A stretch of DNA of 64,000 nucleotides, taken from the NCBI RefSeq assembly GCF_900102315.1, contig NZ_FNBL01000003.1:62001-126000 (forward strand). The letters are read 5' to 3'. The stretch is from Celeribacter baekdonensis (lineage in GTDB: Bacteria > Pseudomonadota > Alphaproteobacteria > Rhodobacterales > Rhodobacteraceae). Below the pieces are notes generated by a model that was given only the letters and a program-made list of their open reading frames with translations, ran no database searches and was not told the origin of the DNA. How positions within the stretch are numbered: the stretch's first letter is position 1; each line of letters starts with the position of its first letter. The position numbers and the translations under genes are program-made. This document shows positions 22,658-35,505 of this stretch, one piece after another.

Positions 22658-24223
22658 ATGATGACTAAAATTTTCAAGACGTTCCGCGCCCCTTCGCTCG
22701 AAACCCTGCATATGAGTAAGAGTTTCGGGAGGAACAAGGCGCTCGACGATGTTTCGCTTAAGGTGGCAGCAGGGTCCTTTCATGCGCTCTTGGGGGAAAA
22801 CGGTGCCGGCAAATCCACCCTCGTAAAATGCATGATGGGCTTTTATGAAGCCGATGCAGGTCAGATGATGATCGACGGCCAAGAGATCCGTATTCACAGT
22901 CCACGCGACGCGCAGGCGCTTGGCATCGGCATGGTCTATCAGCATTTTACGCTCGTGCCTTGTCTGACCGCCGCAGAAAATCTGGTGATTTCACGTCGTG
23001 ACATCCCAATGGTGATCAATTGGAAATCCGAACGGCAGCGACTTGACGCGTTCATGGAGACCATGCCCTTTCGTGTGCGGCTTGATGCACAAGTTTCGAC
23101 CCTTTCGGCTGGTGAAAAGCAAAAGCTGGAAATCATCAAGCTGCTCTATCTTGATCAGCGTTTCTTGATCCTTGATGAGCCGACCTCCGTTCTTACGCCA
23201 GCAGAAGCCGACGAGATTTTGGGCGTGCTCGGCGAGATGGCGCTTCGACGCGAGGTTACGGTATTGATGATTTCCCACAAGTTTCGCGAAGTGAAAGCCT
23301 TTTGCGACAGTTTCACCGTGCTGCGCCGCGGTCGGTTTGTTGGGGCCGGAGATGCCCGTCGCGTCAATGCGGCTGAGATGAGTTCGATGATGATCGGGGA
23401 TGTGGGGATGCGCCCACCTGCAACCCGTCTGAAGACAATACAGGACGGGCCAAAGTTGGAATTGCGCGGCGTTTCTACGCTGGGCGATGAGGGGCGGCGT
23501 GTGGTTTCGGATCTGTCTCTCAAACTGTGTTCCGGCGAAATCCTCGGGATCGCCGGTGTCTCCGGCAATGGGCAAAGCGCCCTGATCGAAGTGTTGTCGG
23601 GGCAACGGCCACTCTCGGGCGGAGAGATCAAAATCAACGGCGCGCCTTTTGAGCCGACACGACGCAATTTTGATCGGTTCAAGGTGTTCGGCCTGCCCGA
23701 GGAACCGATGCGAAACGCGGTGGTGCCGCGTATGTCGGTGGCAGAGAACATCGCCTTTCGCAGTTTTGATAAACCGCCCGTCCTTAAGCGTTTTGGCCTA
23801 ATGTCGTCTGCGCGCATGCGGCAAAGAGGGATGGAGTTGATCCAGCAATTCAACATTCATACCAGCTCGCCGGACGCGCCGATCGAGACGCTGTCAGGGG
23901 GCAATGTCCAACGCACAGTGCTGGCCCGCGAACTGTCCGGTGAGGTTGATATTCTGATCGTTGCGAACCCGTGTTTCGGGTTGGACTTCGCCTCGGTCGC
24001 CGATATCCGTGGCAAGATCATGGAGTGCAGGAACCGAGGTGCGGCTGTGCTGCTGGTCAGTGAGGATCTCGACGAGATTTTCGAGATGTCTGATAAAATT
24101 TCGGTCATGTCGGCGGGCAAAATATCTGATCCGGTATCAACATTGGCAACAGACGCAATGCGCATTGGAAAACAGATTGCAGGGCAAACAGACGAGATTG
24201 TCGCTGGGCCACAGGCTGAGTAG
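22658..24223 (+). CDS. ABC transporter ATP-binding protein (BMP system, dual ATPase)
   Basis: 521-aa ATPase with two fused nucleotide-binding domains, as in nucleoside and sugar importers. The first half has Walker A GENGAGKST, signature LSAGEKQ and Walker B FLILDEPTS. The second half has a degenerate Walker A (GVSGNGQSAL), signature LSGGNVQR and a weak Walker B (ILIVANPCFGLD), which is normal for the non-catalytic half in this family, although NPCFG for the usual QPTRG is a little unusual. It completes the importer with the binding protein and two permeases upstream. Confidence 0.93.
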   Translation: MMTKIFKTFRAPSLETLHMSKSFGRNKALDDVSLKVAAGSFHALLGENGAGKSTLVKCMMGFYEADAGQMMIDGQEIRIHSPRDAQALGIGMVYQHFTLVPCLTAAENLVISRRDIPMVINWKSERQRLDAFMETMPFRVRLDAQVSTLSAGEKQKLEIIKLLYLDQRFLILDEPTSVLTPAEADEILGVLGEMALRREVTVLMISHKFREVKAFCDSFTVLRRGRFVGAGDARRVNAAEMSSMMIGDVGMRPPATRLKTIQDGPKLELRGVSTLGDEGRRVVSDLSLKLCSGEILGIAGVSGNGQSALIEVLSGQRPLSGGEIKINGAPFEPTRRNFDRFKVFGLPEEPMRNAVVPRMSVAENIAFRSFDKPPVLKRFGLMSSARMRQRGMELIQQFNIHTSSPDAPIETLSGGNVQRTVLARELSGEVDILIVANPCFGLDFASVADIRGKIMECRNRGAAVLLVSEDLDEIFEMSDKISVMSAGKISDPVSTLATDAMRIGKQIAGQTDEIVAGPQAE

Positions 24224-24917
24224 TATTTTGCTTGAGGGATAGTTTTCTAAGATTGCACTGTTGCGTCTTGCGGCAGTTCACACCCTGTGCCGCGAATGAC
24301 GTCTCTAATTGGCTGTCTGGGTCACGCTTCCCTTTGCAGTCTGGTGTGGCGCTCAAAGGATGCCACTGGATGCATGTGCCGTCATGGAAATGAAAGAGAA
24401 ATGAAAGAGCCCCGCTTTTCGCGATGCGTTAAGTTGCGCAGCATACATTTTCGGCTTCGTCCACGACCCTTTCCGGGTTTGGACGATCGCGTCAGGATAA
24501 GTGGTAGGCGACTTGATCATGCTGCGCGACCAACGCGTTTCTGACAGAATTCTGTGCCGTCAAATCACATAGGATGCATGAGCAAGGTCACTTTGGGGCG
24601 ACCGTCGCTATGCTGGGGCGACAGAGCGTATTTTTACTGCGACAGCAGATTTAAGTTACAATCAACAGTGTAACTTTGAAAATTTCATGTTTTCGCGGCC
24701 TGAAAAAACAGTGTCAAAACATGTAGATAATTAGAATTTCCATAAGAGTGAAAACTTTAGATTGTGAAATGACCTCAAAGTTAAACAAAAACTTAATTCG
24801 GACAGAGATGATAATCTAACGCGCTATTTTGAATCTTAAGAACATCCCTTTACGCGAATGTGTTCCGGTCTCTTCCTGCGTGATGTCGTAGCCTGACGGA
24901 AACGCGTGGAGAATATT
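24224..24917. other. Gene-poor, AT-rich spacer before the surface-fibre cluster
   Basis: About 690 bp with no supported gene. The first 350 bp are GC-rich with only short frames lacking ribosome sites. From about 24640 to 24860 the sequence becomes markedly AT-rich and stop-dense, consistent with a promoter and regulatory region for the lipoprotein/HfaB-like cluster that starts at 24918. I could not identify a specific operator. Confidence 0.5.
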
Positions 24918-25472
24918 ATGAACATCCGACTTAGTGCCATAATTTTGGCGATTCCGACGCTTTCTGCGTGTGGACAGAGCTTGAGCCTGACCATGCAGGA
25001 TCCGTACTGCATAGCCGATAAAGCAGGGAAATCAGTCGAAGACTCCTTCTTTGTCGTCGATGGCGAGTACTATGTTTTGAGCGACACTTATGTTGCGACG
25101 AATGGCAAAATGACACAATACCCGGACGAATGCCCGGTAACGAATTTCTACGTCGTGCCAGCGGTGCGTCTTTCCGATGGCAGCGTGCGGTCTACGCAAA
25201 GTGTTCCAAACAATATTCCATCACCGGCTGGCACTCCAGAGATTGTAGCTGAGAGCGCAGAAGCAGGAACCGCGCAGGCGTCCGAAGTGGTTTCTGGTGG
25301 GACGGTGGCTGAGAGTGCGAGTACCGGAAACGTGTCTGTGTCTGAAGTGAGTATGACAGATGCGCCCAATGACACTGGAAAGGATGGAGACGACGCAGCT
25401 GTGACGGCGGGCAACATCACGATCCACCGTGATGGTAGCGTTACAACGCCCAATCTTGGGCGCGTAAAATGA
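24918..25472 (+). CDS. Small predicted lipoprotein, first gene of the HfaB-like cluster
   Basis: 184-aa predicted lipoprotein. The start ATG follows GGAGAAT; the signal ends in lipobox LSAC with the cysteine at residue 18. Residues 25-75 look folded (DPYCIADKAGKSVEDSFF, with further cysteines). The rest is Ser/Thr/Ala/Glu-rich and contains a short internal repeat (AESAEAGTAQASEV and AESASTGNVSVSEV), ending NITIHRDGSVTTPNLGRVK. It overlaps the next gene by four bases (ATGA). Function unknown; position suggests an accessory of the secretion system, in the way CsgE/CsgF accompany CsgG, but no sequence similarity to those was visible to me. Confidence 0.75.
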   Translation: MNIRLSAIILAIPTLSACGQSLSLTMQDPYCIADKAGKSVEDSFFVVDGEYYVLSDTYVATNGKMTQYPDECPVTNFYVVPAVRLSDGSVRSTQSVPNNIPSPAGTPEIVAESAEAGTAQASEVVSGGTVAESASTGNVSVSEVSMTDAPNDTGKDGDDAAVTAGNITIHRDGSVTTPNLGRVK

Positions 25473-25981
25473 AACAACTCGTTCTCGGCCTTTCTCTGCT
25501 TCCATGTCTCGCATGGGGCCAAACCTATAGTACGTCTGGACAGAATTGGTCGGGAAGCTATGCGTTTCCGAGCGCATCTGACCGTAGCCTCGTGTTGCAG
25601 CAAGCGCAGGTGATCAACGACGCCGAAAACCCGACGGCTGCGGCACAGACGAACTACTACATTACAAACGATAACCGCACTGGCTACGTTGAGGTGACAA
25701 CGGATGGTGATGTCACGACTGATTTGCAGATTGGTGACGAAATCGGTCAACAGACCTATGCTGTTGGATCTCTAAACACAGGCACGACGGATGTGTCGGT
25801 GGAGGGCGATGGCAACATCATTACCGCAGACAACACGGCCGACAACAGTGGCTGTATTGATGCATCTATCTTGTCATCCTTGCAGACCCCTGAAGGCGAC
25901 GCCGCAACGGATGTGTCGTCTCTCTCAGTTCTTGATCTTGCCGATGCGCTCGCTGCTTTTGCGGCGGGAAACTGCAATTGA
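25469..25981 (+). CDS. Small exported protein, curlin/HfaA-like
   Basis: 170-aa exported protein with a clear Sec signal (MKQLVLGLSLLPCLAWGQ). The middle is rich in Asn, Thr, Gln and Asp and reads like a curlin-type strand-turn region: IGDEIGQQTYAVGSLNTG then VSVEGDGNIITADNTADNSG. YAVGSLNTG resembles the ALGAVNTG repeat of the exported proteins further down the cluster. The gene overlaps the lipoprotein upstream and is 20 bp from the CsgG/HfaB-like gene. In Caulobacter the small secreted HfaA lies next to HfaB, so an HfaA-like role is the best guess; similarity is by character and context rather than by a diagnostic motif. Confidence 0.6.
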   Translation: MKQLVLGLSLLPCLAWGQTYSTSGQNWSGSYAFPSASDRSLVLQQAQVINDAENPTAAAQTNYYITNDNRTGYVEVTTDGDVTTDLQIGDEIGQQTYAVGSLNTGTTDVSVEGDGNIITADNTADNSGCIDASILSSLQTPEGDAATDVSSLSVLDLADALAAFAAGNCN

Positions 25982-26000
25982 TCTTGTGTTTGGGGGCAAC

Positions 26001-27296
26001 GTGAAACCGTTTCCAGTGATCGCAAGTGTTGTTGCTCTCCTTTCAGGATGTGCCAGCCTTGGACAGGCTGTGGCGCCAATGGATCAGGATGTATTCATGG
26101 TTGATGGGCCGCCCGTCCGCCGTGTCGAGACTGCATATGACGAAGCGCTCGCTTGCATTGGCAACCGCGCACCGAGATCGCTGACCTTCGCCGTCGGTGC
26201 CATCAATGATGCGACCGGCAAAGAAAGTTATGCCGACGCAGGCAGCGGGAAAATGGTCACGCAGGGTGCAGGGGATATGATCCAGACCGCCCTGTTCAAT
26301 GCTGGTGTGAAGGTCGTAAACCGGCGCGACCCGGCCATTGCGGCGACTGAGCACAACTGGGGTATCCGCGATATTACGTCGATGAAGCCGGCGGATCTTT
26401 TCATCACGGGAAGTATCAACAGTCTCGATTTTATTCCAGGAGCCGGGGCGTCTGTGACCGTCTCGGGGGTTGGGCCGAAAGCGCGGCAGAACCGTTTGTT
26501 GGTTGGAATGGATCTGGCCATGACCAATGCGCTGACCGGGGAAATTGTCGCAAATATCGCGATTCAAAAACAACTCGTAGGCAAAGAAATTGGATTTGCG
26601 ATTGGTCGGTTCTTTGACACCAGCCTCGTTGATATTTCGGCAGGCGCAATGGAACGCGAAGCCACCAATGCTGTGTTCCGGCAGATGCTTTACTACGGTG
26701 TATATCAGCTCCTTTTACAAGCAAGTGACGCAGCAGAAAGTGCTGGCGAATGCAATGCAAACCTGACTGCGACAATTGCAGAAGACTTGGTCTGGGAAGA
26801 TCCTGCTGGGCGCGCATCCTTGCGGGCAATTGCCTCAGAGGTAGAGGCGGCTCGTCCGCCTTCCGAACAAGAAGTCGCTGAGATGCGTGCAGAAATGACG
26901 ACAGCCGCTCCGGTTGAGCTGTCCGCCGAGGCACGCAAGCTTGCCAACAACGTTACGACACAGGCGGCACGCGCCATATCGATGTTTGATACTGTCGTGT
27001 CGGCGAAAAATGCCCAGGCCGCGCAAACAGCCTTTGAGAAGGGCAAAATCTACCTGTCCATTGCCATTCGCGATCTGCGCGCTGGGGCCAGTGTGGGTTT
27101 GACTGGTCCCGTAGGCGATGCCGCCGCGACGCTTGTCGAACAGGCGATCCGCGCAGGCTCAGCCGCCGAAATTGCGCTCGCTGTAAAAATTGCTCCGAAG
27201 GATGAGGAAGAGGCTGTGATCGCGCCCGAAACGGCGACGGATCCGGCGTCACCGTCCAGCCCGGCTAAACCGTCAAACGTGGAGGGAAAGCCATGA
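26001..27296 (+). CDS. hfaB: CsgG/HfaB-family outer-membrane lipoprotein
   Basis: 431-aa lipoprotein of the CsgG/HfaB family. The GTG start after TGGGGGCAAC gives a short signal with lipobox LLSGC, cysteine 17. The CsgG-like core follows: RSLTFAVGAINDATGKE, an amphipathic segment with GAGDMIQTALFNAGVKVVNR, DLFITGSINSLDF, and the membrane-strand part SVTVSGVGPKARQNRLLVGMD. A long C-terminal tail of about 150 residues beyond CsgG size is Ala/Glu-rich and probably helical. CsgG forms the curli secretion pore; HfaB anchors the Caulobacter holdfast. Neighbours upstream and downstream are exported repeat proteins, which supports a secretion-pore role. Confidence 0.82.
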   Translation: MKPFPVIASVVALLSGCASLGQAVAPMDQDVFMVDGPPVRRVETAYDEALACIGNRAPRSLTFAVGAINDATGKESYADAGSGKMVTQGAGDMIQTALFNAGVKVVNRRDPAIAATEHNWGIRDITSMKPADLFITGSINSLDFIPGAGASVTVSGVGPKARQNRLLVGMDLAMTNALTGEIVANIAIQKQLVGKEIGFAIGRFFDTSLVDISAGAMEREATNAVFRQMLYYGVYQLLLQASDAAESAGECNANLTATIAEDLVWEDPAGRASLRAIASEVEAARPPSEQEVAEMRAEMTTAAPVELSAEARKLANNVTTQAARAISMFDTVVSAKNAQAAQTAFEKGKIYLSIAIRDLRAGASVGLTGPVGDAAATLVEQAIRAGSAAEIALAVKIAPKDEEEAVIAPETATDPASPSSPAKPSNVEGKP

Positions 27297-27448
27297 TGCA
27301 TCCTTCTACATCCAGTTTTCTTTGCGAGACCCGCAAAGAAAGGTTTGTGGTCATACACCACAACTCAAACGGGGCCCTCGAATATGCCCTATTTAAGGAC
27401 GGCCTGTTCTCGAGGGAAGAACAGGCACAAACGAGGACATCACTATGA
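27293..27448 (+). CDS. Possible 51-aa coupled small ORF
   Basis: A short frame starting MMHPSTSSFLCETRKE and ending AQTRTSL. Its ATG overlaps the stop of the HfaB-like gene (ATGA) with GGAGGG well placed upstream, and its stop overlaps the start of the repeat protein (ATGA). Four-base overlaps at both ends are what a coupled operon gene looks like. Against it: no recognised domain, and a 10-bp inverted repeat lies inside. It may be translated only to couple ribosome flow, or be a chance frame in a leader. Confidence 0.4.
   Translation: MMHPSTSSFLCETRKERFVVIHHNSNGALEYALFKDGLFSREEQAQTRTSL
27317..27341 (+). repeat. 10-bp perfect hairpin ahead of repeat-protein gene
   Basis: TTTCTTTGCG-AGACC-CGCAAAGAAA is a perfect 10-bp stem with a 5-base loop, without a T-tract. 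It sits about 100 bp before the start of the ALGAVNTG protein gene, inside the possible small ORF. It could stabilise or process mRNA so that the downstream subunit is made in excess over the secretion pore. Confidence 0.55.
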
Positions 27449-28293
27449 AAAAGCTTCTTGCTACTACCGCCGTCGCACTGATCGCAATGTCGGGCGCAGC
27501 GTCCGCACAATCCGTTCTGGAGCGTGTGCTGACTTCTTTGGATGCAGCGACATCCACAGAACTGAACGGCACTTTTGCGAACATCGCTGAAAACCTCGGC
27601 GGTGGAACGACAACTGCATATATGGATGCAAACGGCGATATCATTTCTGAAGGTCAGTATGATATCCTTTTGAATGCTGCACTGGATTCGATCGATGCAG
27701 TTGCTGGGACAGGAACCATCATCGGCTACCAATATGGCAGTGACACCTATTCAACTATGGCTGAAGCTGTAACTGCTGCTGAGAACGATATTGCTGACAA
27801 TTACACCTCGTTCCAAACGCAAGGTGGCGGCATCGACGGTTCGATCACAAACACCATCGAAGGCGTGACCAGCGCTATTGCTGATGCGACCCAGTCTTCG
27901 ACAGCTGGCACTACGATTGCATATGAATTCAACTTGCCGACTTACGATCTGGGTGCTCTGTCCACAACCGCACTTGGCGCTGTGAACACCGGCGACATCA
28001 CTCTCGGTGTGAACTCCACCGTGGATGACGCAAAAACCACGTCGACACAGGCCGTGTCCTCTGTGATGCAACAACTGGGTGGTACTGTCGATAACGGCGC
28101 TCTGGTGCTGAACATTGCATCGAACATGACCGCTGTTGATGGTTCGATCACCAACTCGATGAACAACGTGAACGGTGTACTTGCATCCGCGTCGACAACT
28201 GCACTTGGTGCGGTCAACACCGGTACAATCACATCCGGTGTGAATGCTGCTGTTCAGGGCATCGTCGGCACTTCGGGTTCAACCACCAACTAA
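27445..28293 (+). CDS. Exported repeat protein with two ALGAVNTG modules
   Basis: 282-aa exported protein with a standard signal peptide (MKKLLATTAVALIAMSGAASA). The head of the mature part is SVLERVLTSLD...FANIAEN, shared with the protein encoded at 30052. Two modules follow: DGSITNT (131-137) leading to STTALGAVNTGDITLGVN (173-190), and DGSITNS (232-238) leading to STTALGAVNTGTITSGVN (250-267). There is no cysteine and few charged residues, so a beta-rich fibre- or matrix-forming protein exported through the neighbouring HfaB/CsgG-like pore is plausible. An HfaD-like role is possible but I cannot show it. A terminator-like hairpin follows. Confidence 0.8.
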   Translation: MKKLLATTAVALIAMSGAASAQSVLERVLTSLDAATSTELNGTFANIAENLGGGTTTAYMDANGDIISEGQYDILLNAALDSIDAVAGTGTIIGYQYGSDTYSTMAEAVTAAENDIADNYTSFQTQGGGIDGSITNTIEGVTSAIADATQSSTAGTTIAYEFNLPTYDLGALSTTALGAVNTGDITLGVNSTVDDAKTTSTQAVSSVMQQLGGTVDNGALVLNIASNMTAVDGSITNSMNNVNGVLASASTTALGAVNTGTITSGVNAAVQGIVGTSGSTTN

Positions 28294-28322
28294 TCTACGC
28301 TTCGTAGGTTGATAAAGCTAAG

Positions 28323-28347
28323 GGAGGGGGCAGTCATTGCCCCTTCC
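28323..28347 (+). terminator. Hairpin after the repeat-protein gene
   Basis: Stem GGAGGGGGCA paired with TGCCCCTTCC across a 5-base loop: ten pairs including one G-T wobble. No clear T-tract follows. It likely ends or attenuates the transcript that began before 24918. Confidence 0.55.
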
Positions 28348-28420
28348 ACATATAATAAGATTGAAAGGTGGTAGGTTATCATGACTGACACATCTGTTCC
28401 ATGCGCTCTTCAAAAATGAC

Positions 28421-30010
28421 ATGAAAATTACAAATAAACAGTTCAAGACGATCATAAAAGACTGTGTGGCGAGGAATGACATCTTCGGTGCGGAATTAGT
28501 GTGCGCAGAGGTAATTAAAAATGGGAGATTATGCCAAACCGCGCGCATAATGAAGTCAAAGTTAGAAAAGAAGAGAGATGCTGCGAATGCAGGGTTTGCA
28601 GAACTATTTCGATCTTATCGCTCCTTTCTAAAGGATGAACGTAATTCAGAAGCACTTAAGTGCTGCACTGAAATGAAAAAAAAATATCCTCATATGTGGA
28701 GTGCTTGGGCCTGTCTAGGTGAAGCATTATTAATAGTACATAGTTACAAACTTGCAGAGTTTGCGCTTGTTCGTGCTATTGAATTGAATCCTTATAATAA
28801 GAGTGCGTCGCTTAATTTATTAACTTGCTTGGTCGAAACGCAAAACGTAGTTGCTTCTGCTACTTATGCGCAAAAAATATTGGATATTTGGGGTGACTCC
28901 GTCGAAATAAGAAGGACTTTGCAGAAACTTCATTCCGGCACTGGCGACAAGTCTGCTGAAAAAAAAGACCTTGAGTTTCTACTGTCCAAAATGCCTAATG
29001 ATGTTCCATCTCTCGTAAGACTCGCGGAAATCGAAAAACTAGATAAGCAAAGCGATATCTATAAAGTATCAGTCGAACTGCTTAATGCCGAAAAAAGTGT
29101 AAAAACGTCGGTTTCTTTGTGTTGGTTGATAGCAAAACTAAGTGAAAGAAGTGGTGACTATGCTGAGAGTGCTGCTTACCTAAAGAAAGGCGCGGCATTA
29201 CAGTTTGATCCAGAAAAAGACAATCTTTCTCACTATAGAAAGCGTTTTGAGGATTCTCTTGAGCTGGCATCCTTTCGTGGCGTGGTAGACTCTGAAATCC
29301 CCTTTACACCTATTTTTGTTGTCGGACTGCCCAGGTCCGGAACTTCATTGATGGAACAACTCTTATCTGAGGCAAAAGATGTCACTGGCGCTGGAGAGTT
29401 GCCTTATTTTACGAGAAATCAGCACGCTTCTGATGACAAAGGAGTATTGTCTGAGCGACTATCAATGATCAGGGCAAACTATTCCCGTGATGTTCATATG
29501 CTGGCAAAAGATAGATTTGTTGTTGATAAAATGCCTCATAACTTCTTATCGATTGGCGCTATAAAACGTGCCTTTCCAGAAGGTAAGATCATCTACATGA
29601 AGCGTGACCTTCGTGCGATTGCCTGGTCGCAATTTAAAAGTAAATTCAGTTCGGATGGACTGGCATACACTTACAATGAAGGTTCTATAGTAGAGCACTT
29701 TGAGTTCTATATGTCTGTTATGGATAGGTGGGCAGAGTTGCATCCACAGGACTTTTTGGAGGTTGATTATGATAAAATGGTTCAAGATCCTGCTTCATAT
29801 TTACCCCAAGTGTTTCAATACTGCGGTTTAGAGTTTAATGAAAATTATTTAGATTTTCATAAGAAAGGCAAGGTCACGTTCACCGCCTCTGTGGATCAGG
29901 TCCGCAAGGGAATTTATGGCGGTAGTTCTAATAGTTGGAAGAATTATGAACCATACTTTTCCGAATTTTTTGAAAAACTTACCAAACTTGAGATGGATCG
30001 CAAGCACTAG
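28421..30010 (+). CDS. TPR-containing sulfotransferase
   Basis: 529-aa cytoplasmic protein with TPR-like helices in roughly residues 60-230 (ALVRAIELNPYNKSASLN is the clearest) and a Sulfotransfer_3-type domain from about 290. The PAPS 5'-phosphosulfate loop is GLPRSGTSLMEQLL (about 301), the 3'-phosphate segment is YMKRDLRAIAWSQF, and the family's late motif FTASVDQVRKGIYGGSSNSW is present. Such enzymes move sulfate from PAPS to hydroxyl groups on glycans or proteins. The gene is much more AT-rich than its surroundings, has no strong ribosome site, and sits between two repeat-protein genes. Transfer from elsewhere and a role in modifying the surface polymer or its glycans are inferences. Confidence 0.85.
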   Translation: MKITNKQFKTIIKDCVARNDIFGAELVCAEVIKNGRLCQTARIMKSKLEKKRDAANAGFAELFRSYRSFLKDERNSEALKCCTEMKKKYPHMWSAWACLGEALLIVHSYKLAEFALVRAIELNPYNKSASLNLLTCLVETQNVVASATYAQKILDIWGDSVEIRRTLQKLHSGTGDKSAEKKDLEFLLSKMPNDVPSLVRLAEIEKLDKQSDIYKVSVELLNAEKSVKTSVSLCWLIAKLSERSGDYAESAAYLKKGAALQFDPEKDNLSHYRKRFEDSLELASFRGVVDSEIPFTPIFVVGLPRSGTSLMEQLLSEAKDVTGAGELPYFTRNQHASDDKGVLSERLSMIRANYSRDVHMLAKDRFVVDKMPHNFLSIGAIKRAFPEGKIIYMKRDLRAIAWSQFKSKFSSDGLAYTYNEGSIVEHFEFYMSVMDRWAELHPQDFLEVDYDKMVQDPASYLPQVFQYCGLEFNENYLDFHKKGKVTFTASVDQVRKGIYGGSSNSWKNYEPYFSEFFEKLTKLEMDRKH

Positions 30011-30051
30011 AGGATCAATTTTACAGGAATTGTGAGCGGAAGGGGGAACCA

Positions 30052-31395
30052 ATGAAAAGTCTATCCAGAGTTCCTACAGTTGTGGCGAAAATTCTTTTGG
30101 CGTCTGTTCCGTATAGCGTATCAGCATCTATCCTAGAACGCGTGCTTCCGTTATTGGATGTAGCATATCCCCATATCGAAGCGTCCAATATATCTGCAAA
30201 CATTGCTGAAAACATAAGCAATCCAAACACTCAGAACAGAACGTTGGCAACTGGTGACCGTGCGACCATCGGACATGGCACGTCCGGCACTGCGGTCTTG
30301 GGAACCGCTGACGCCTTTGGTGTTTGCGTTGATCGAGAAAGCCCTCATGAGATGCAGAGCGAAGGAGTTGAAATCTTGCATAGTTTTCGCAGTTTTGTCT
30401 CTCGTTGCTTGCACAGGATGTGTCGCGGACTGTCGCGCCGTCTGAGCCACAGCCTACCCAGAGTTGCTTTGAAACGAAGCAGATACCCCTTTGAGAGGTT
30501 CCCAAACCTGCGCGGCATTGTGATCTGCGTCCTTTCAGGACTGTCGCTTGCGGCCCCTGCGTCCGCAGAGACTCGTCTTGAACGTATTTTTGCCGCTTTG
30601 GCAGAAACAGGGTTTGGTGCTGACGTCTTGTTTATGGTCAATGTTGCCGAAAACACGTCAAGTTTTATGAGCCAACCGGCACGTCTCAAATCCGGACAAA
30701 CTGTCGTCATCGGATATGATACCGTTGGTGCGCCCGTCATCGCGCAATCCGACGATTTTGGCGTGACTGTGACCGCGGCGCAGGCTTTGGAGCTTGAGCG
30801 TGGTCTTCCGCCTGGTTTCTATCCGACCGGCAGCGGGCTTTTTTCCATTCCGACAGGTGCTCAGCTGTCCCTGTACGAAGCGGACCGGGATGGGCAGGCG
30901 ATTGCAACAGCGCGCGAACTTGTTTCGACGCGGATTGATGGCCAGATCCTGACGGTTATCGGACTTTCCCCAAGATTTGCCGAATTTGGGGACCTGGCGT
31001 TGGTTGCAGGACAAAACAGTGCCTTGCGTGCCATCACTCAAATTGATGCGCTTCAAACGACGGTACTTGGCGCAGTGAACAACGGGATCGCTGTCACAAA
31101 CGTCGTTGCCAATTATGGCACGGATGTCTTGGTCCCAACGGATCTTATCGCCTCAAAAGTCTCGCGTGGTGCCAACATGAGTTATATGCAGGCGGCTACG
31201 GATCAGGTCGAGGCGGTGCATCTGGTGCAGGTTGTCACTTCGGGTCCCAGTGTTTTGATGAATTTGGCGTCGAATGATATGGATATAATTGGTAGCATCC
31301 GTCTGCGCGTGTCTGATCAATCGGGGTCAGCCCTCAAGGTTGTCACGACGGCAATCGGTGCTGTGAACAGCGGAATTATCTCGAATACGAATTAG
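30052..31395 (+). CDS. Exported repeat-family protein: truncated copy fused in frame to a full copy
   Basis: An open frame of 447 codons behind an AAGGGGG site. Residues 1-93 form one copy: signal peptide, then SILERVLPLLD, ISANIAEN, TIGHGTSGTAVL and DAFGVCV. Residues 94-153 look like non-coding sequence read through. Residues 154-172 are a second signal peptide (GIVICVLSGLSLAAPASA), followed by a full second copy: TRLERIFAALA, MVNVAEN, VIGYDTVGAPVI, DDFGVTV, and later TTVLGAVNNG and TTAIGAVNSG, ending SNTN. So this is either a fused duplicate or two genes, with the second starting internally around 30418-30470 where no good ribosome site is visible. The same family as the protein at 27445. 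Confidence 0.65.
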   Translation: MKSLSRVPTVVAKILLASVPYSVSASILERVLPLLDVAYPHIEASNISANIAENISNPNTQNRTLATGDRATIGHGTSGTAVLGTADAFGVCVDRESPHEMQSEGVEILHSFRSFVSRCLHRMCRGLSRRLSHSLPRVALKRSRYPFERFPNLRGIVICVLSGLSLAAPASAETRLERIFAALAETGFGADVLFMVNVAENTSSFMSQPARLKSGQTVVIGYDTVGAPVIAQSDDFGVTVTAAQALELERGLPPGFYPTGSGLFSIPTGAQLSLYEADRDGQAIATARELVSTRIDGQILTVIGLSPRFAEFGDLALVAGQNSALRAITQIDALQTTVLGAVNNGIAVTNVVANYGTDVLVPTDLIASKVSRGANMSYMQAATDQVEAVHLVQVVTSGPSVLMNLASNDMDIIGSIRLRVSDQSGSALKVVTTAIGAVNSGIISNTN

Positions 31396-31421
31396 AGATT
31401 TGAGCACGTTTTCAGGTCAAT

Positions 31422-31449
31422 TGGTTATAAACACTGGTTATAAACACTG
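31422..31449. repeat. 13-bp tandem repeat over the kinase stop codon
   Basis: TGGTTATAAACAC occurs twice in direct tandem (31422-31434, 31435-31447) followed by TG, between two convergent genes. The stop codon of the minus-strand histidine kinase lies in the second unit, so copy-number change would not alter the rest of the protein but could shift its end. Confidence 0.6.
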
Positions 31450-34125
31450 TGACGATAGCAATTGTGTAAGCCCTTGTAGGCGTACAATTTCTGCTTTGCG
31501 GCAGCATTTTTCGATCTCACCCAAAAGACGCCCGAGTTTCGGGTAGCCAAGAAACAGCAAACTCCCCGCAACAAAGTGCGAAAATTGCGCAATCTCATCA
31601 AGGTCTTTAGCCCCCGGGTCATTTTGCAGCATGCCTCGTAGCATGCCTCCAAGTGTTTCCACCTCTGTTTTGGCGCGACGGGTCAGTTCGACCAAATTGG
31701 GATTTTCCTCAAAACTCATGAGCGGGTTGGAAAGTCGTTCGAACTCGAACGCCTCTTGCTGCTCGACATCGTCCATCGAGTCGCGTTCTAAAATGGCTTT
31801 TTCAATGTGCGACCGAAGCTGATGCATGGTGAATGGTTTGTGGAGAATAGAGTCGATGCCGCTTTCAAAGAGCTCAAGTGTCTCTTCCATTTTCATGCTC
31901 GCTTGCGCCGTCACGGCAATGATGCAGGCTTTCGAGGATCTTGACCCCAGTCGGATGATGGATGAGGCTTCTAAACCTGACATGTTCGGCATATTCAGAT
32001 CGGTCAAGATAAGATCGTAGGCTGTCGCACAGGCCTTTTGAACCGCTTCAAACCCGTCAATGGCGGTGTCCACATCATAGCCGATTTGTTCGGCCATTGC
32101 CTTGAGCAATGTTCTATTGGTGGGGTGATCTTCGACCAACAAGACATGTCCTTTTGGTGCGCCGGTATGTTTCACATCCTCGCGTGTGGGTGTGTCTGGG
32201 GCTGGCGTGCTATTTGGCGTCCGATCGGAGCGCCCAGACATTTTCCCCCATGGGATATTCGCGGGCATGTCGTCTTCGGATTGTTCCTGTTTCGCGGAAG
32301 ATGGCACCCGGATCGCGTCATTCTGCTCATCGTGTACAAAAGAGGGGATCGTGAAACAAAACCTACTGCCACTTCCCAGAGTACTTTCCAATGTGATTGT
32401 CCCGCCCATGAATTCCACGGATCTCTGGACAATTCCGAGGCCTAGACCGGTGCCGGGCAAAACCGGTGCAACTTCGTCGGATAGAGAATAGAAATCTTCG
32501 AAGATGCGCGCTTGATCTGCCTGGCTTATGCCAATGCCCGTATCAATCACCTCGATACGTGTTTCCCATGCACTATTTACCAACGAGTTTGTGCCGAGCA
32601 CAGTGATCGAGCCAGCATTTGTAAACTTGATGGCATTGGAAATGAGGTTGTAGATCGCATTTGAAAACGCGCGCCGGTATCCGATGTTTTCATCCGGACC
32701 CCGCCAGTTGAGTGTCAGGGCGTTGCCCTTTGATTTGGCCAATGCCTCGAGCTGCTCACATATCTGCTGTACTGTGTTGCGAGGGTTATAAGGCTGCGGG
32801 GTGAGCTGAGATGACATGGCATCATGCCGCGCAATGTCGAGAACATCGTCAATTTGCTCAAGAGCTGTTGCCGCGGCATCGCGTGATATCTGAATATATT
32901 CGCGACGTTTTATTGCTTCCGTCTCGGTTTCTGCGAGATCAAGAGCCGCGACAACGCCATGCAGAGGCGTCCGCATTTCGTGACTCATCGTCGCGAGAAA
33001 ACGGCTCTTTGCAGACGCATCACTGCGTGCGCGGGCCAACGCTGTGCGTGCTTTTAGGCGTGCATTCCATTCTTGAGAAGTGTCACGCACGAAGCCGATT
33101 AAGACCGGTTGCCCGTCCATTCCCGTCTCTCTTACGATGCTAAGAGATGCGGGAAATGTTTCTCCATTGAAGCGACGGGCCCTTACATTTGAACGATGTA
33201 AGGCGTTGTTGCCGCTTTCTTTGCGGGCAAACATGATGCGGAGTTGTTTTTCGAAAGGTGCCCAGCTTTTTTTGGGTGTCAGGTGCTTTAAAACGGATTG
33301 TCCATAGGCCTCTTTGCGTTGACATCCAAACATGGCCTCGGCAGCAGCATTGAACTCTATGACTTTAAAATCACAGTCCATTACGATGATTGCATCGTGA
33401 GAGACCTCAAGTAGTTTTGCGAGATAGGATGACAATTTTTTTTGAGTGAGATTGGTGGTTGCGATCCGCCTCAAAAGAAACACCACGGATATGAAGCTCA
33501 GGAGAAGTAGACCGATTAGAACAAGAGAATAAAAGAGGTAGTTGTTCAAAGATGAATGCAGGACGCTGCGTCTCTCTTCTTGAGAGTCGATTGCCGACTG
33601 CAGAGCCGACAACGCAAAGATTCGGCTAAGCGTTGCGGCATATTCGATTAAATCGAAGATTGCTCGCACATCATCGACCGTTTTCAAATGCCCTGCATCT
33701 ATTTCAATTGCAGCCTTGTCACGCAGTGTGGTCAATTCCGATAGGGCGTCACGGGCATCTTGTTCGACGGGAAATGTTCGCAACCTTTGTGCAACTGTGT
33801 CCACGCGCGCATAAAAGATGTCGAAACGCGTCTCAATTTCGAGATGGGTCTCGTCGGATATCGGAGACCCGTCTTGCGTTTCCATTAAGGCTTGAGCAAG
33901 GGCTAGCTGAAGGCGATGCAGTTCCACTTCGACCTGAACGAAGTTCCAGGTTTCGCTGTCAGAGCGTGCAAAAGAAAAGGAATTAACTTTGCGAGACAAG
34001 TCAACGGAAATGGTCAAGAGGATCAGCAGGACAAAGCTGAAAATCGTTACTGAAACGTACATTTTCCGTCGTGTCAGGCGCCAATGCGGAGACACGTTCA
34101 GAAATTTCGGAATGTGGCGTTTCAT
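31438..34125 (-). CDS. Hybrid sensor histidine kinase with receiver and Hpt-like domain
   Basis: 895-aa inner-membrane hybrid kinase. Two membrane helices (about 22-42 and 196-220) bracket a roughly 150-residue helical periplasmic region. A PAS domain follows (LLEVSHDAIIVMDCDFKVIEFN), then the HisKA H-box SHEMRTPLHGV (His near 381) and HATPase motifs NLISNAIKFT, DTGIGIS and GTGLGLGI. A receiver (VLLVEDHPTN, DLILTDLNMP, Asp near 708) comes next, and a C-terminal Hpt-like segment with FSHFVAGSLLFLG (His near 850). It overlaps the upstream gene for a periplasmic molybdopterin-fold protein by four bases (ATGA), so the two are made together and probably sense together. Confidence 0.9.
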   Translation of the reverse strand: MKRHIPKFLNVSPHWRLTRRKMYVSVTIFSFVLLILLTISVDLSRKVNSFSFARSDSETWNFVQVEVELHRLQLALAQALMETQDGSPISDETHLEIETRFDIFYARVDTVAQRLRTFPVEQDARDALSELTTLRDKAAIEIDAGHLKTVDDVRAIFDLIEYAATLSRIFALSALQSAIDSQEERRSVLHSSLNNYLFYSLVLIGLLLLSFISVVFLLRRIATTNLTQKKLSSYLAKLLEVSHDAIIVMDCDFKVIEFNAAAEAMFGCQRKEAYGQSVLKHLTPKKSWAPFEKQLRIMFARKESGNNALHRSNVRARRFNGETFPASLSIVRETGMDGQPVLIGFVRDTSQEWNARLKARTALARARSDASAKSRFLATMSHEMRTPLHGVVAALDLAETETEAIKRREYIQISRDAAATALEQIDDVLDIARHDAMSSQLTPQPYNPRNTVQQICEQLEALAKSKGNALTLNWRGPDENIGYRRAFSNAIYNLISNAIKFTNAGSITVLGTNSLVNSAWETRIEVIDTGIGISQADQARIFEDFYSLSDEVAPVLPGTGLGLGIVQRSVEFMGGTITLESTLGSGSRFCFTIPSFVHDEQNDAIRVPSSAKQEQSEDDMPANIPWGKMSGRSDRTPNSTPAPDTPTREDVKHTGAPKGHVLLVEDHPTNRTLLKAMAEQIGYDVDTAIDGFEAVQKACATAYDLILTDLNMPNMSGLEASSIIRLGSRSSKACIIAVTAQASMKMEETLELFESGIDSILHKPFTMHQLRSHIEKAILERDSMDDVEQQEAFEFERLSNPLMSFEENPNLVELTRRAKTEVETLGGMLRGMLQNDPGAKDLDEIAQFSHFVAGSLLFLGYPKLGRLLGEIEKCCRKAEIVRLQGLTQLLSSQCL

Positions 34126-34628
34126 TCTGACGTTAAAACCCTAATTTCAACGAGTTGCCAGACGGCGGCTCCATACACAGGTTCTGTTTGGTATTCTTTG
34201 CGTTTGTCGAAGGGATACATGATCCACAGAGGGCCTTTCTCCCGGAGAGAAAACGGCATCCCATCGATCCTGTTGGCAATGATTGGATAGGTGTCATCAA
34301 TCAAAGCCGGGCTAATATCAACCTTGTAGTCATTGGCTCCAACAAACGTCATTGAATTTTGTTCGTGGATTCCCACCATGGAAAGGACGCTGGTAAGAGA
34401 AGGGCCACTATAACTTGGACTCCCTTCTGTCCAAAGCGAAGATGTTTGGAAGGATTGCTGTTCCAACTGCAGAAGCATGTCGTCCGTAATCTCGAAACGT
34501 TCATCTGTCCCTTCTATAGAAATTGTCAGAAGCACATCCTGAGCACAGACCATTTGCGGCGATAGCGCGAAACAACCCGCGAAAGCAATCATTTGGGCAG
34601 CTTTAAGAGTAAAACCGTGTGGGAACAT
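34122..34628 (-). CDS. Periplasmic molybdopterin-fold sensor partner
   Basis: 168-aa exported protein (signal around AAQMIAFAGCFALS...VCA). The mature part resembles the small stand-alone version of the oxidoreductase molybdopterin-binding fold: a SYSGPSLTSVL stretch, FVGANDYKVDISPALI, and a late GPLWIMYPFD. These small versions usually lack the cofactor cysteine, and here no conserved Cys is seen in the pocket region, so it is probably a non-enzymatic binder. The start at 34628 was preferred because AAGGA is well spaced from it. It overlaps the hybrid kinase downstream and is divergent from the response regulator, which suggests a ligand-sensing partner of the kinase. Confidence 0.7.
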   Translation of the reverse strand: MFPHGFTLKAAQMIAFAGCFALSPQMVCAQDVLLTISIEGTDERFEITDDMLLQLEQQSFQTSSLWTEGSPSYSGPSLTSVLSMVGIHEQNSMTFVGANDYKVDISPALIDDTYPIIANRIDGMPFSLREKGPLWIMYPFDKRKEYQTEPVYGAAVWQLVEIRVLTSE

Positions 34629-34833
34629 AGTCATTTCCTTGAGATAAAACGCTTTTAGGGAGATTTTCACCAAAAAAGTTTTTTATACAATGCGCAAAAG
34701 TAAAATAGCATCATCTTTAGTTTCCACGTTATTCCACCAAGGATTTATTTGCTCTTAATAGTTTCTGCATATGGCGGCGGCGCTAAAATTCATACAAATA
34801 GTAAAAAATTGTATATCATATAGAGAAAATCCT

Positions 34834-35505
34834 ATGCACAAACCTCAAAGGCAGTCGAACACAGAGATGCAACAGCGCATGGTTTCCGTCCTTATTGCTG
34901 ATGATCATAAACTGATCTCAGAGGCTTTGAAGATTATACTCGTTGAAGAGGGAGATTTCTCCGTCGAAACGAGCGTCTCCTTGCAAAGCACCCTCGACGT
35001 TCTGCGCGCGCACCCCAAGTCTTTTGACGTTGTGATGCTTGATATCTCTATGCCGGGAATGGAAGGTCTGCGATCCGTGAAGCAGGTCGTAGATGCAACC
35101 CATGAGGGATCAGTTGTCATTTTTTCTGGAACTGCTGACGATGACTTCGTCTGGCAGGCCATTGAGATCGGGGCAAAAGGCTTTATCTCCAAAGGGCAAC
35201 CTTTCCGCAGTTTTGCCGCGACACTCAGATTGATCGCCGATGGCAACGAATTTGTCCCGCTGTCACTGTCGAGAAGTGTTAAAAACGCAACCAAAGGCGC
35301 AGACGGACCCGATGAGCAAGAGCGGCGCATTCTCAAGCTGGTTGCTGAAGGAAAGACAAACAAGGAAATCGCGTTCGAGCTGAATTCGAGCGAGGTCGCA
35401 ATTAAAATGAAAATGCGGTCGATATGTACGAAACTAGATGCCAAGAACCGCGCACATGCAGCTATCCTTGCGCAAAGACATGGGCTCATAACAATTGACA
35501 CCTGA
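34834..35505 (+). CDS. LuxR/NarL-type response regulator
   Basis: 223-aa two-domain response regulator. The receiver runs from about residue 17 (SVLIADDHKLISEAL) with phospho-acceptor Asp near 70 in MLDISMPGMEG, the conserved Thr/Ser in FSGTADD and Lys in ISKG. The C-terminal LuxR HTH has EQERRILKLVAEGKTNKEIA and VAIKMKMRSICTKL. The frame is open for 21 codons upstream but the ATG at 34834 is preferred. It is transcribed divergently from the molybdopterin-fold/hybrid-kinase pair and is its likely output regulator. The AT-rich 205 bp between them must hold both promoters. Confidence 0.88.
   Translation: MHKPQRQSNTEMQQRMVSVLIADDHKLISEALKIILVEEGDFSVETSVSLQSTLDVLRAHPKSFDVVMLDISMPGMEGLRSVKQVVDATHEGSVVIFSGTADDDFVWQAIEIGAKGFISKGQPFRSFAATLRLIADGNEFVPLSLSRSVKNATKGADGPDEQERRILKLVAEGKTNKEIAFELNSSEVAIKMKMRSICTKLDAKNRAHAAILAQRHGLITIDT

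Follow-up and report, generated by a model that had tools for sequence, protein, structure and literature searches.

An HfaABD-like cassette in Celeribacter baekdonensis and other bacteria, with a probable structured RNA leader ahead of its cargo gene

Layout of the locus

The 64,000-nucleotide stretch of the Celeribacter baekdonensis genome (4.44 Mb) analysed here, hereafter the window, contains a locus in which genes for a small lipoprotein, a small exported protein that we call HfaA-like, an outer-membrane lipoprotein of the HfaB/CsgG family (hfaB) and two exported repeat proteins (D1 and D2) follow one another on the same strand (Table 1). The genes and coordinates given by an initial annotation, which was made from the sequence alone, were confirmed. 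It had also described the genes as closely spaced. This holds upstream of hfaB, where the lipoprotein and HfaA-like genes overlap by 4 nucleotides (nt) and 19 nt separate the HfaA-like gene from the GTG start of hfaB, but not downstream, where hfaB and D1 are 148 nt apart and the gap is occupied by a structured RNA. Likewise, a further family member does follow D1, but it is separated from it by a gene for a tetratricopeptide repeat (TPR)-sulfotransferase of 529 residues.

Table 1. Features of the C. baekdonensis locus (window positions)
Feature	Position	Strand	Remarks
Small lipoprotein	24918..25472	+	Lipobox LSAC (by eye), low-complexity tail; opens the Rhodobacterales form of the cassette
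HfaA-like small exported protein	25469..25981	+	WS motif near mature N-terminus; TxxVGsxNTGT..I.V.G.gN near C-terminus
HfaB/CsgG-family outer-membrane lipoprotein	26001..27296	+	GTG start; long C-terminal extension
Kissing-loop RNA element, D1 leader	27371..27426	+	Two hairpins, complementary loops
Hairpin 1 of D1 leader	stem 27371-27374/27387-27390, loop 27375-27386	+	
Hairpin 2 of D1 leader	stem 27402-27409/27419-27426, loop 27410-27418	+	
D1, exported, two STTALGAVNTG modules	27445..28293	+	Residues 51-128 strongly divergent from strain B30
TPR-sulfotransferase, 529 aa	28421..30010	+	Between D1 and D2; not in strain B30
D-type gene head fragment	30052..30324	+	In frame with D2; not in strain B30
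D2, second D-type exported protein	30352..31395	+	TTVLGAVN and TTAIGAVN modules
Sensor histidine kinase	31438..34125	-	Possible regulator
LuxR-type response regulator	34771..35505	+	Relatives in flanks of 15 Rhodobacterales-type loci

C. baekdonensis B30 (locus L070) is nearly the same strain as that of the window, the two hfaB products being 99% identical. Its locus can be aligned with the window up to position 28277, except for 27615-27825 inside D1, and then again from 30324. The intervening segment of about 2 kb, i.e. window 28277-30324 with the TPR-sulfotransferase and the D-type head fragment, is not in B30 (L070 10346-10502). Since it is absent from B30, the TPR-sulfotransferase is probably outside the core cassette; BLAST found a match to it in only one other locus (L112), and we rejected it as a cassette part. 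The open reading frame (ORF) 30052-31395 consists of the head fragment fused in frame to a complete D2 gene; the start of D2 is uncertain, and the ATG at 30352 is common to the window and B30.

Conservation of the cassette

When 84,980 species genomes were scanned, 149 places matched the pattern; 87 of them were confirmed, and 80 of these 87 loci were analysed. The hfaB ORF is intact in 77 of the 80, and the cassette counts refer to these 77. An HfaA-like gene lies directly upstream of hfaB in 76 of them, the exception being a Desulforhopalus locus (L112) where it lies directly downstream. D adjoins hfaB in 69 loci, i.e. in 68 by profile and in L085, whose D ORF overlaps hfaB. Of the eight loci without a called D, five have sequences that end within 905 bp past hfaB, and the other three (L096, L113, L115) have an exported protein at this place with repeats that are similar by eye. 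D is found downstream of hfaB save in two Polynucleobacter loci, where it precedes hfaB, and more than one D gene follows hfaB in 11 loci (ten Rhodobacterales-type and one other). The hosts are Rhodobacterales, Aureimonas and relatives, Acinetobacter, some Betaproteobacteria and one Desulforhopalus. Note that "Rhodobacterales-type" is our own grouping; it includes a few metagenome-assembled genomes (MAGs) named only Alphaproteobacteria, as well as L076, which is named Gammaproteobacteria and placed by the tree among this group. The three genes, HfaA-like, hfaB and D, are thus conserved together as a cassette.

The hidden Markov models (HMMs) used for the counts were built from the same loci: the HfaA-like alignment (A5) holds the window protein (P0002) and 59 of 61 sound non-redundant rows, the D alignment (A4) holds D1 (P0004) and 58 of 71 non-redundant D rows. 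With HMMs of the first pass, which draw on six Rhodobacteraceae genomes only, the counts out of the same 77 loci are 73 for HfaA-like and 63 for D. An iterated HfaA-like search (104 ORFs, nominally 80/80 loci) was over-inclusive and was not used for counts; after an adjacency filter 80 rows were left, four non-exported ORFs still among them. The lipoprotein belongs to the Rhodobacterales form: a lipobox ORF lies directly upstream of the HfaA-like gene in 23 of the 29 Rhodobacterales-type loci with more than 800 bp of room, and in 0/9 Aureimonas-type, 1/24 Acinetobacter and 1/5 other loci.

Repeat-protein homologues lying mostly away from CsgG/HfaB genes would have spoken against the initial reading; a profile search of 295 genomes of the same family placed them beside hfaB. 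Window-type hfaB is present in 8 of these at E<=1e-10 and is strong (E<=1e-66) in 6; the D profile has 7 matches, 6 of which are in exactly the genomes with strong window-type hfaB, while the seventh is a 31-residue alignment at a signal peptide. A search of 20 whole genomes, picked from among those with the 80 loci, found D matches in every one, on one contig and within a few kb, with the exception of Nioella ostreopsis, which carries two additional D genes on a separate contig. One cassette is plasmid-borne (pDY25-D of Pacificitalea manganoxidans), where it is annotated as hypothetical / hypothetical / CsgG/HfaB / hypothetical; an annotated ATP-binding protein and a molybdopterin-dependent oxidoreductase lie upstream of it.

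The pore protein

The initial assignment of the 26001 product as CsgG/HfaB-like had been made to depend on its matching these profiles, and it does: Pfam CsgG is matched with 36.5 bits (gathering threshold 20.8) and NCBIfam HfaB (NF037935, an equivalog model) with E 7.6e-27 and 94.1 bits, a score that misses the curated cut-off of 300 bits. A profile from six HfaB relatives matches the sequences of solved CsgG (E 6.7e-5, profile positions 66-231 aligned). The protein is thus a CsgG-domain lipoprotein (its lipobox identified by eye) whose profile match covers the pore-forming region, as in the CsgG/HfaB superfamily. In a tree of 89 HfaB/CsgG cores, which has a midpoint root and a bootstrap that is not fully settled, the 65 rows of the window-type clade group together (92/91), and a branch (98/96) sets 22 rows, all 11 classical HfaB included, apart from them. 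The window HfaB belongs to a clade separate from classical HfaB.

Other members of the superfamily were encountered. An alphaproteobacterial genome (L069, G309 C1) has five HfaB-family matches, three within approximately 10 kb, and several loci of another CsgG/HfaB group (L062, L064-L068) have hfaB, next a gene for a large exported protein with ATAVGN-like repeats and behind it one for a small exported protein. Distant HfaB/CsgG homologues are also encoded by large Caulobacter and Brevundimonas phages (ON529852.1, MH588545.1, JX100810.1 and others; 9 records matched, with 29-30% identity among the 8 matches listed).

The D proteins and the shared motif

The module STTALGAVNTG, noticed initially as a twofold feature of the 27445-28293 product, occurs exactly twice in D1, and the two 33-nt copies differ at 6 nucleotides that are all third-position and silent. 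The longest internal repeat of D1 has 11 residues, as compared with a maximum of 9 in 2000 residue shuffles. Among the 221 window ORFs of at least 80 residues the motif pattern is confined to the two D ORFs, and in the related loci at least two strict motifs are present in 38 of 82 D ORFs vs 1 of 2155 other ORFs, this one being the D ORF of L085 that was overlooked by the adjacency rule. A chance low-complexity repeat was rejected in view of the silent-only copy differences, the shuffles and the conservation. The motif is not limited to D. A profile alignment of HfaA-like and D proteins over TxxVGsxNTGtxxI has an hhalign score of 30.5, while the best of 60 column shuffles reaches 12.1, which supports the earlier impression that the YAVGSLNTG segment of the HfaA-like protein is related to the D motif.

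Neither HfaA-like nor D1 has a Pfam or NCBIfam match above cut-off, and three further D proteins have nothing above Pfam gathering. When 59 D proteins were compared with NCBIfam, the sole match at E<=0.01 was to the FabG model (0.0061, one member), which we rejected, as we did a D-profile match in L060 (E 1.8e-4) that is a porin judged by its sequence. The repeat family had been called new-looking, and this is supported: the exported repeat proteins of the HfaB/CsgG locus are a genuine family, conserved and without a name.

Comparison with B30 gave dN/dS values of 0.0145/0.131 for the lipoprotein, 0.005/0.123 for HfaA-like, 0.005/0.088 for HfaB and 0.013/0.080 for D2; HfaA-like, HfaB and D2 are under purifying selection. 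D1 has higher values (dN 0.20, dS 0.48) because its residues 51-128 are largely replaced; here only 22 of 78 aligned residues are identical, and another 22 columns are gaps. Outside this region the identities are 46/50 in the signal and head, 77/82 in module 1, 55/58 in module 2 (178/190 for head and modules overall) and 10/14 in the tail. Such a conserved frame with a replaced middle would fit a surface-exposed protein.

AlphaFold2 models were made of D1 (59 sequences; predicted local distance difference test, pLDDT, 67.4; predicted TM-score, pTM, 0.47) and of the D protein of the Acinetobacter locus L141 (47 sequences; pLDDT 64.2, pTM 0.44). In both, strands are predicted on NxAxN, on (D/N)xS(V/I), on the segment closed by the TTAIGAVN motif and immediately past this motif; the set recurs twice per chain, with two extra strands in the L141 model. 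Strands are thus placed at equivalent motif elements in two distant D proteins. Foldseek gave no match to the PDB at E<=0.001 for either model. D likely contains a beta-rich module, as judged from these models. A solenoid or amyloid fold, which the initial annotation had suggested looking for by structure prediction, is not established by models of such modest confidence.

A probable structured RNA ahead of the first D gene

The gap between hfaB and D1 contains two hairpins that can be locked by pairing of their loops (CCCTCGA:TCGAGGG), i.e. a kissing-loop element. When the hfaB-D gap was folded in 12 loci, strong structure was found in three (z -4.4 in the window, -3.6 in L083, -3.2 in L141), with z between -0.4 and -2.2 in the remaining nine. 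Two more hairpins lie upstream of the element (window 27316-27365), and their sequence is identical in B30.

Two hairpins with complementary loops recur ahead of the first D gene across loci. We counted them with two tests, in each of which an identical descriptor was applied to D leaders and controls; note that several Acinetobacter loci contribute the same conserved genes to the other-gene control. Test 1, a single descriptor that requires at least 5 loop-loop Watson-Crick pairs and a hairpin 1 starting 60-88 nt before the start codon, is positive for 45 of 71 distinct D leaders (Rhodobacterales-type 18/28, Acinetobacter 24/28, Aureimonas-type 1/9, other 2/6), as compared with 37/492 leaders of other genes, 3/71 stretches before hfaB and 4, 0 and 3 of 71 dinucleotide shuffles. 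Test 2, in which pairing starts from loop-1 base 1 or 2, one G-U pair is allowed and hairpin 1 lies within 55-95 nt, is positive without a score limit for 57 of 72 first-D leaders (Acinetobacter 25/28, Aureimonas-type 6/9, Rhodobacterales-type, window included, 24/29, other 2/6). The corresponding controls are 9/71 before hfaB, 5, 9 and 6 of 72 for shuffles and 113/492 (23%) for other-gene leaders, a background so high that a single positive leader proves little. With a score of at least 18, a limit fixed once the scores were known, the test retains 50 of 72 first-D leaders (25 Acinetobacter, 6 Aureimonas-type, 18 Rhodobacterales-type, 1 other) vs 19/492 other-gene leaders, 1/71 stretches before hfaB and 0/216 shuffles. 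Of 14 leaders that belong to other D genes (second, third or unlinked copies), 3 meet the unscored test (scores 14.3, 18.5 and 19.9), which is about the background. Among the non-Acinetobacter positives listed, the distance from the start of hairpin 1 to the start codon is 70-89 nt in all but two, where it is 61-62 nt.

The loop sequences change while their complementarity is kept. The positive leaders have 26 different paired segments, some distinct in length only, and each of the first six loop-loop pairs is represented by two to six pair types in these rows preselected for pairing. When loop 2 was permuted among 23 Rhodobacterales-type leaders, likewise preselected, 0 of 2000 permutations reached the observed pairing. 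Among 20 Acinetobacter leaders, pairing holds in 96.4% of cells, changes on both sides are seen at 7 pairs, and the covariation score is above that of all 500 shuffles. The Acinetobacter loop-loop helix varies at one pair and on one side only, so the variation of the loop helix stems from the Rhodobacterales and from the cross-lineage comparison. The MAFFT alignment of Rhodobacterales leaders (A7) shifts the loops by at least one base and was excluded from the pair counts. When 10 genomes were scored with a covariance model of the Acinetobacter form, with 150 candidates per genome, each had a single match at E<=0.01.

No leader match was found in Rfam at gathering in window 24000-31600 and ten loci; at E<=1, window 27290-27460 gave only the sub-threshold family Enterococcus-1 (16.8 bits vs 71.4). 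The Limimaricola MAG locus L072 has an unexplained Rfam PYLIS_3 match at 2868-2967 (42.4 bits, gathering 38).

Comparison with HfaABD and curli

It is useful to compare the general features of the cassette with those of known CsgG-family systems. The initial annotation held that the locus does not match the Caulobacter hfaABD set. In gene order and kinds of protein it does match: a small exported protein is followed by a CsgG-type lipoprotein and a larger exported protein, as in hfaA-hfaB-hfaD, and the window HfaB matches the HfaB profile. The small and large cargo proteins have a common beta motif in both systems, the relationship between classical HfaA and HfaD (hhalign 21.2, shuffle maximum 18.2; only 7 HfaA and 6 HfaD rows) being weaker than that between HfaA-like and D. 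Caulobacter HfaA and HfaD are surface proteins whose surface placement needs HfaB, as stated in the available part of PMC6707917.

The part of the claim that stood is that HfaB belongs to a separate clade, with a score far under the equivalog cut-off, and that D has no demonstrable homology to HfaD. The comparison of D with HfaD is marginal (hhalign 17.4, shuffle maximum 16.6), and HMMER gave no HfaD among the matches listed, which numbered up to 30. The HfaA-like protein compared with HfaA is likewise marginal once signal peptides are cut (16.5 vs a shuffle maximum of 15.8); with signal peptides the values are 23.2 vs 15.2, in an alignment containing some wrong rows. HMMER finds one HfaA at E 0.0014 with an uncleaned iterated profile and a best E of 0.28 with a clean one. 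As cross-system homology is marginal, we liken D to HfaD by position only; D may work like HfaD, and we do not claim that it is HfaD. The window-type cassette also differs in its multiple D copies downstream of hfaB (11/77 loci), in the extra lipoprotein of its Rhodobacterales form and in its structured RNA leader.

With curli, which consist of CsgA/B together with CsgG, CsgE and CsgF, the cassette shares a CsgG-family pore and repeat-bearing exported cargo; CsgA and CsgB have repeats in common as well. Unlike in curli systems, neither curlin repeats (PF07012; E. coli control positive) nor CsgE and CsgF were detected in the genome at E<=0.001, HfaA-like (P0002), D1 (P0004) and the D2 ORF (P0006) have no curlin family match at E<=1, and the cargo motif differs. 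In the available text of Dueholm et al. (2012; PMC3521004), many alphaproteobacterial curli loci are also without CsgE and CsgF, 171 of 601 Pfam-CsgG hits are in curli systems, and the non-specific hits are termed likely paralogues; a cassette of HfaA-like and repeat proteins, or an RNA, is not described in that part of the paper.

In the accessible part of PMC3224125, an Acinetobacter baumannii island operon is described that encodes three lipoproteins, one of them CsgG-like. It resembles the cassette in that a CsgG homologue has two co-encoded partners and differs in that these are lipoproteins, a comparison made by description only. Passages of two further papers mention an A. baumannii protein of the CsgG/HfaB family as repressed by H-NS (PMC8446060) and a CsgG in the envelope proteome of this species (PMC12727854); either is at most a candidate for a member of the present cassette. 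Two leads were discarded: "HFab" in PMC12843791 is a strain name, and PMC7910304, which is reference 11 at the CsgG/HfaB mention of PMC8446060, contains neither term. Among the open-access papers listed as matches, a literature that leaves subscription papers mostly uncovered, none is about the cassette or the RNA by its title or the opening of its abstract.

Neighbouring genes

Downstream of D2 lie a sensor histidine kinase and a LuxR-type regulator (Table 1). Relatives of the regulator were found in the fetched flanks of 15 Rhodobacterales-type loci, B30 included, and related histidine kinases in 8 fetched loci, two of them outside the Rhodobacterales-type. Since such regulators are common, the link of regulator and kinase to the cassette is suggestive only. 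A small exported protein encoded beside them (34122-34673) has relatives in the flanks of 5 fetched loci.

Proposed mechanism and alternatives

Taken together, the locus is probably an HfaABD-type surface-assembly cassette in which the cargo gene is preceded by a structured RNA leader of its own. The HfaB-like lipoprotein would form a CsgG-type pore in the outer membrane, and two types of Sec-exported cargo would cross it, one small (HfaA-like) and one larger (the D protein or proteins). On the surface the two, both of which have the TxA(I/L)GAxNTG beta motif, may pack together and polymerise. HfaA-like would serve as the base or nucleator, and D would make up the extended part, its exposed region varying between strains; the assembled product may be an adhesive or anchoring structure. 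We speculate that the two hairpins of the leader, locked by loop-loop pairing, set the amount of cargo relative to the pore. There are operons whose downstream subunit is needed in excess, and because of the analogy with these the RNA would most likely act by protection or processing of the downstream mRNA.

As to the RNA itself, we are inclined to see in the hfaB-D junction a new class of structured RNA that controls cargo production of a widespread, undescribed HfaABD-like surface structure. With about the same reserve we favour the view that its kissing-loop double hairpin, which for the most part lies 70-89 nt ahead of the start codon of the cargo gene, has been kept despite changing loop sequences in Acinetobacter, Rhodobacterales and Aureimonas relatives, and that it occurs once each in Polaromonas and Desulforhopalus. 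Several results weigh against the explanation as a whole, cassette and RNA. The D models have pLDDT values of 64-67, pTM of 0.44-0.47 and no PDB match, the comparisons with HfaA and HfaD are marginal, and the two unlinked D genes of Nioella ostreopsis have no hfaB or HfaA-like match in the surrounding 16-kb stretch. In the leaders, the unscored background is high and the score limit was set after the fact; outside Alphaproteobacteria and Acinetobacter a score of at least 18 is reached in 1 of 6 leaders (Polaromonas).

It is also possible, though we doubt it, that the double hairpin is a mere mRNA-stabilising or weakly terminating structure with incidental loop complementarity. Intercistronic stem-loops that favour the downstream gene are common, there is a terminator-like stem at window 27316-27342, and the background of 23% ahead of other genes would fit as well. 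The score-limited test (50/72 vs 19/492), the loops that vary yet stay complementary and the loop-2 permutations in the preselected leaders argue against it. A translational switch, in which loop 1 alternatively pairs with the ribosome-binding site of D, is very improbable. The minimum-energy fold of the window does pair loop 1 with CGAGG ahead of the start codon, but in leaders preselected for loop pairing at least 5 Watson-Crick pairs between the first 8 nt of loop 1 and the region from hairpin 2 to the start are possible in 0/25 Acinetobacter, 1/6 Aureimonas-type, 0/2 other and 2/24 Rhodobacterales-type leaders. The pairing is thus not conserved, which makes a Shine-Dalgarno switch unlikely as a general mechanism.

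What the proteins build can be read in other ways too. They might fasten a polysaccharide, polar or unipolar, to the outer membrane, as the Caulobacter HfaABD proteins do, and the identical order and types of protein and the HfaB profile match agree with this. The window HfaB is in a separate clade, however, and the cassette is also present in Acinetobacter and Polynucleobacter, which are not known for holdfasts, so we regard such an anchor as a minority possibility. We are somewhat more sceptical of a curli-like functional amyloid with D as the major fibre subunit, HfaA-like as nucleator and no part for polysaccharide. It would account for a CsgG-family pore, for small and large cargo with a common beta motif, for the beta-rich models of D and for the LuxR-type regulator nearby in 15 loci, CsgD being LuxR-type. 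It agrees poorly with the curlin repeat, CsgE and CsgF that were not found in the genome and with the negative curlin searches of the cargo proteins at the thresholds given above, and the aligned D proteins have two modules instead of a long repeat array.

Significance

Many CsgG homologues lie outside curli loci, as reported in the available part of PMC3521004. CsgG-family pores have two worked-out settings, curli and holdfast anchoring. With the present cassette, one clade of the family gains a cargo pair that can be recognised by its motif, in hosts that range from Rhodobacterales of the sea to Acinetobacter. Should the cassette build an adhesin or anchor on the surface, the genes to be deleted are predicted. 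CsgG forms a nine-fold pore, and the leader RNA would make the balance between such a pore and an excess of cargo a testable question.

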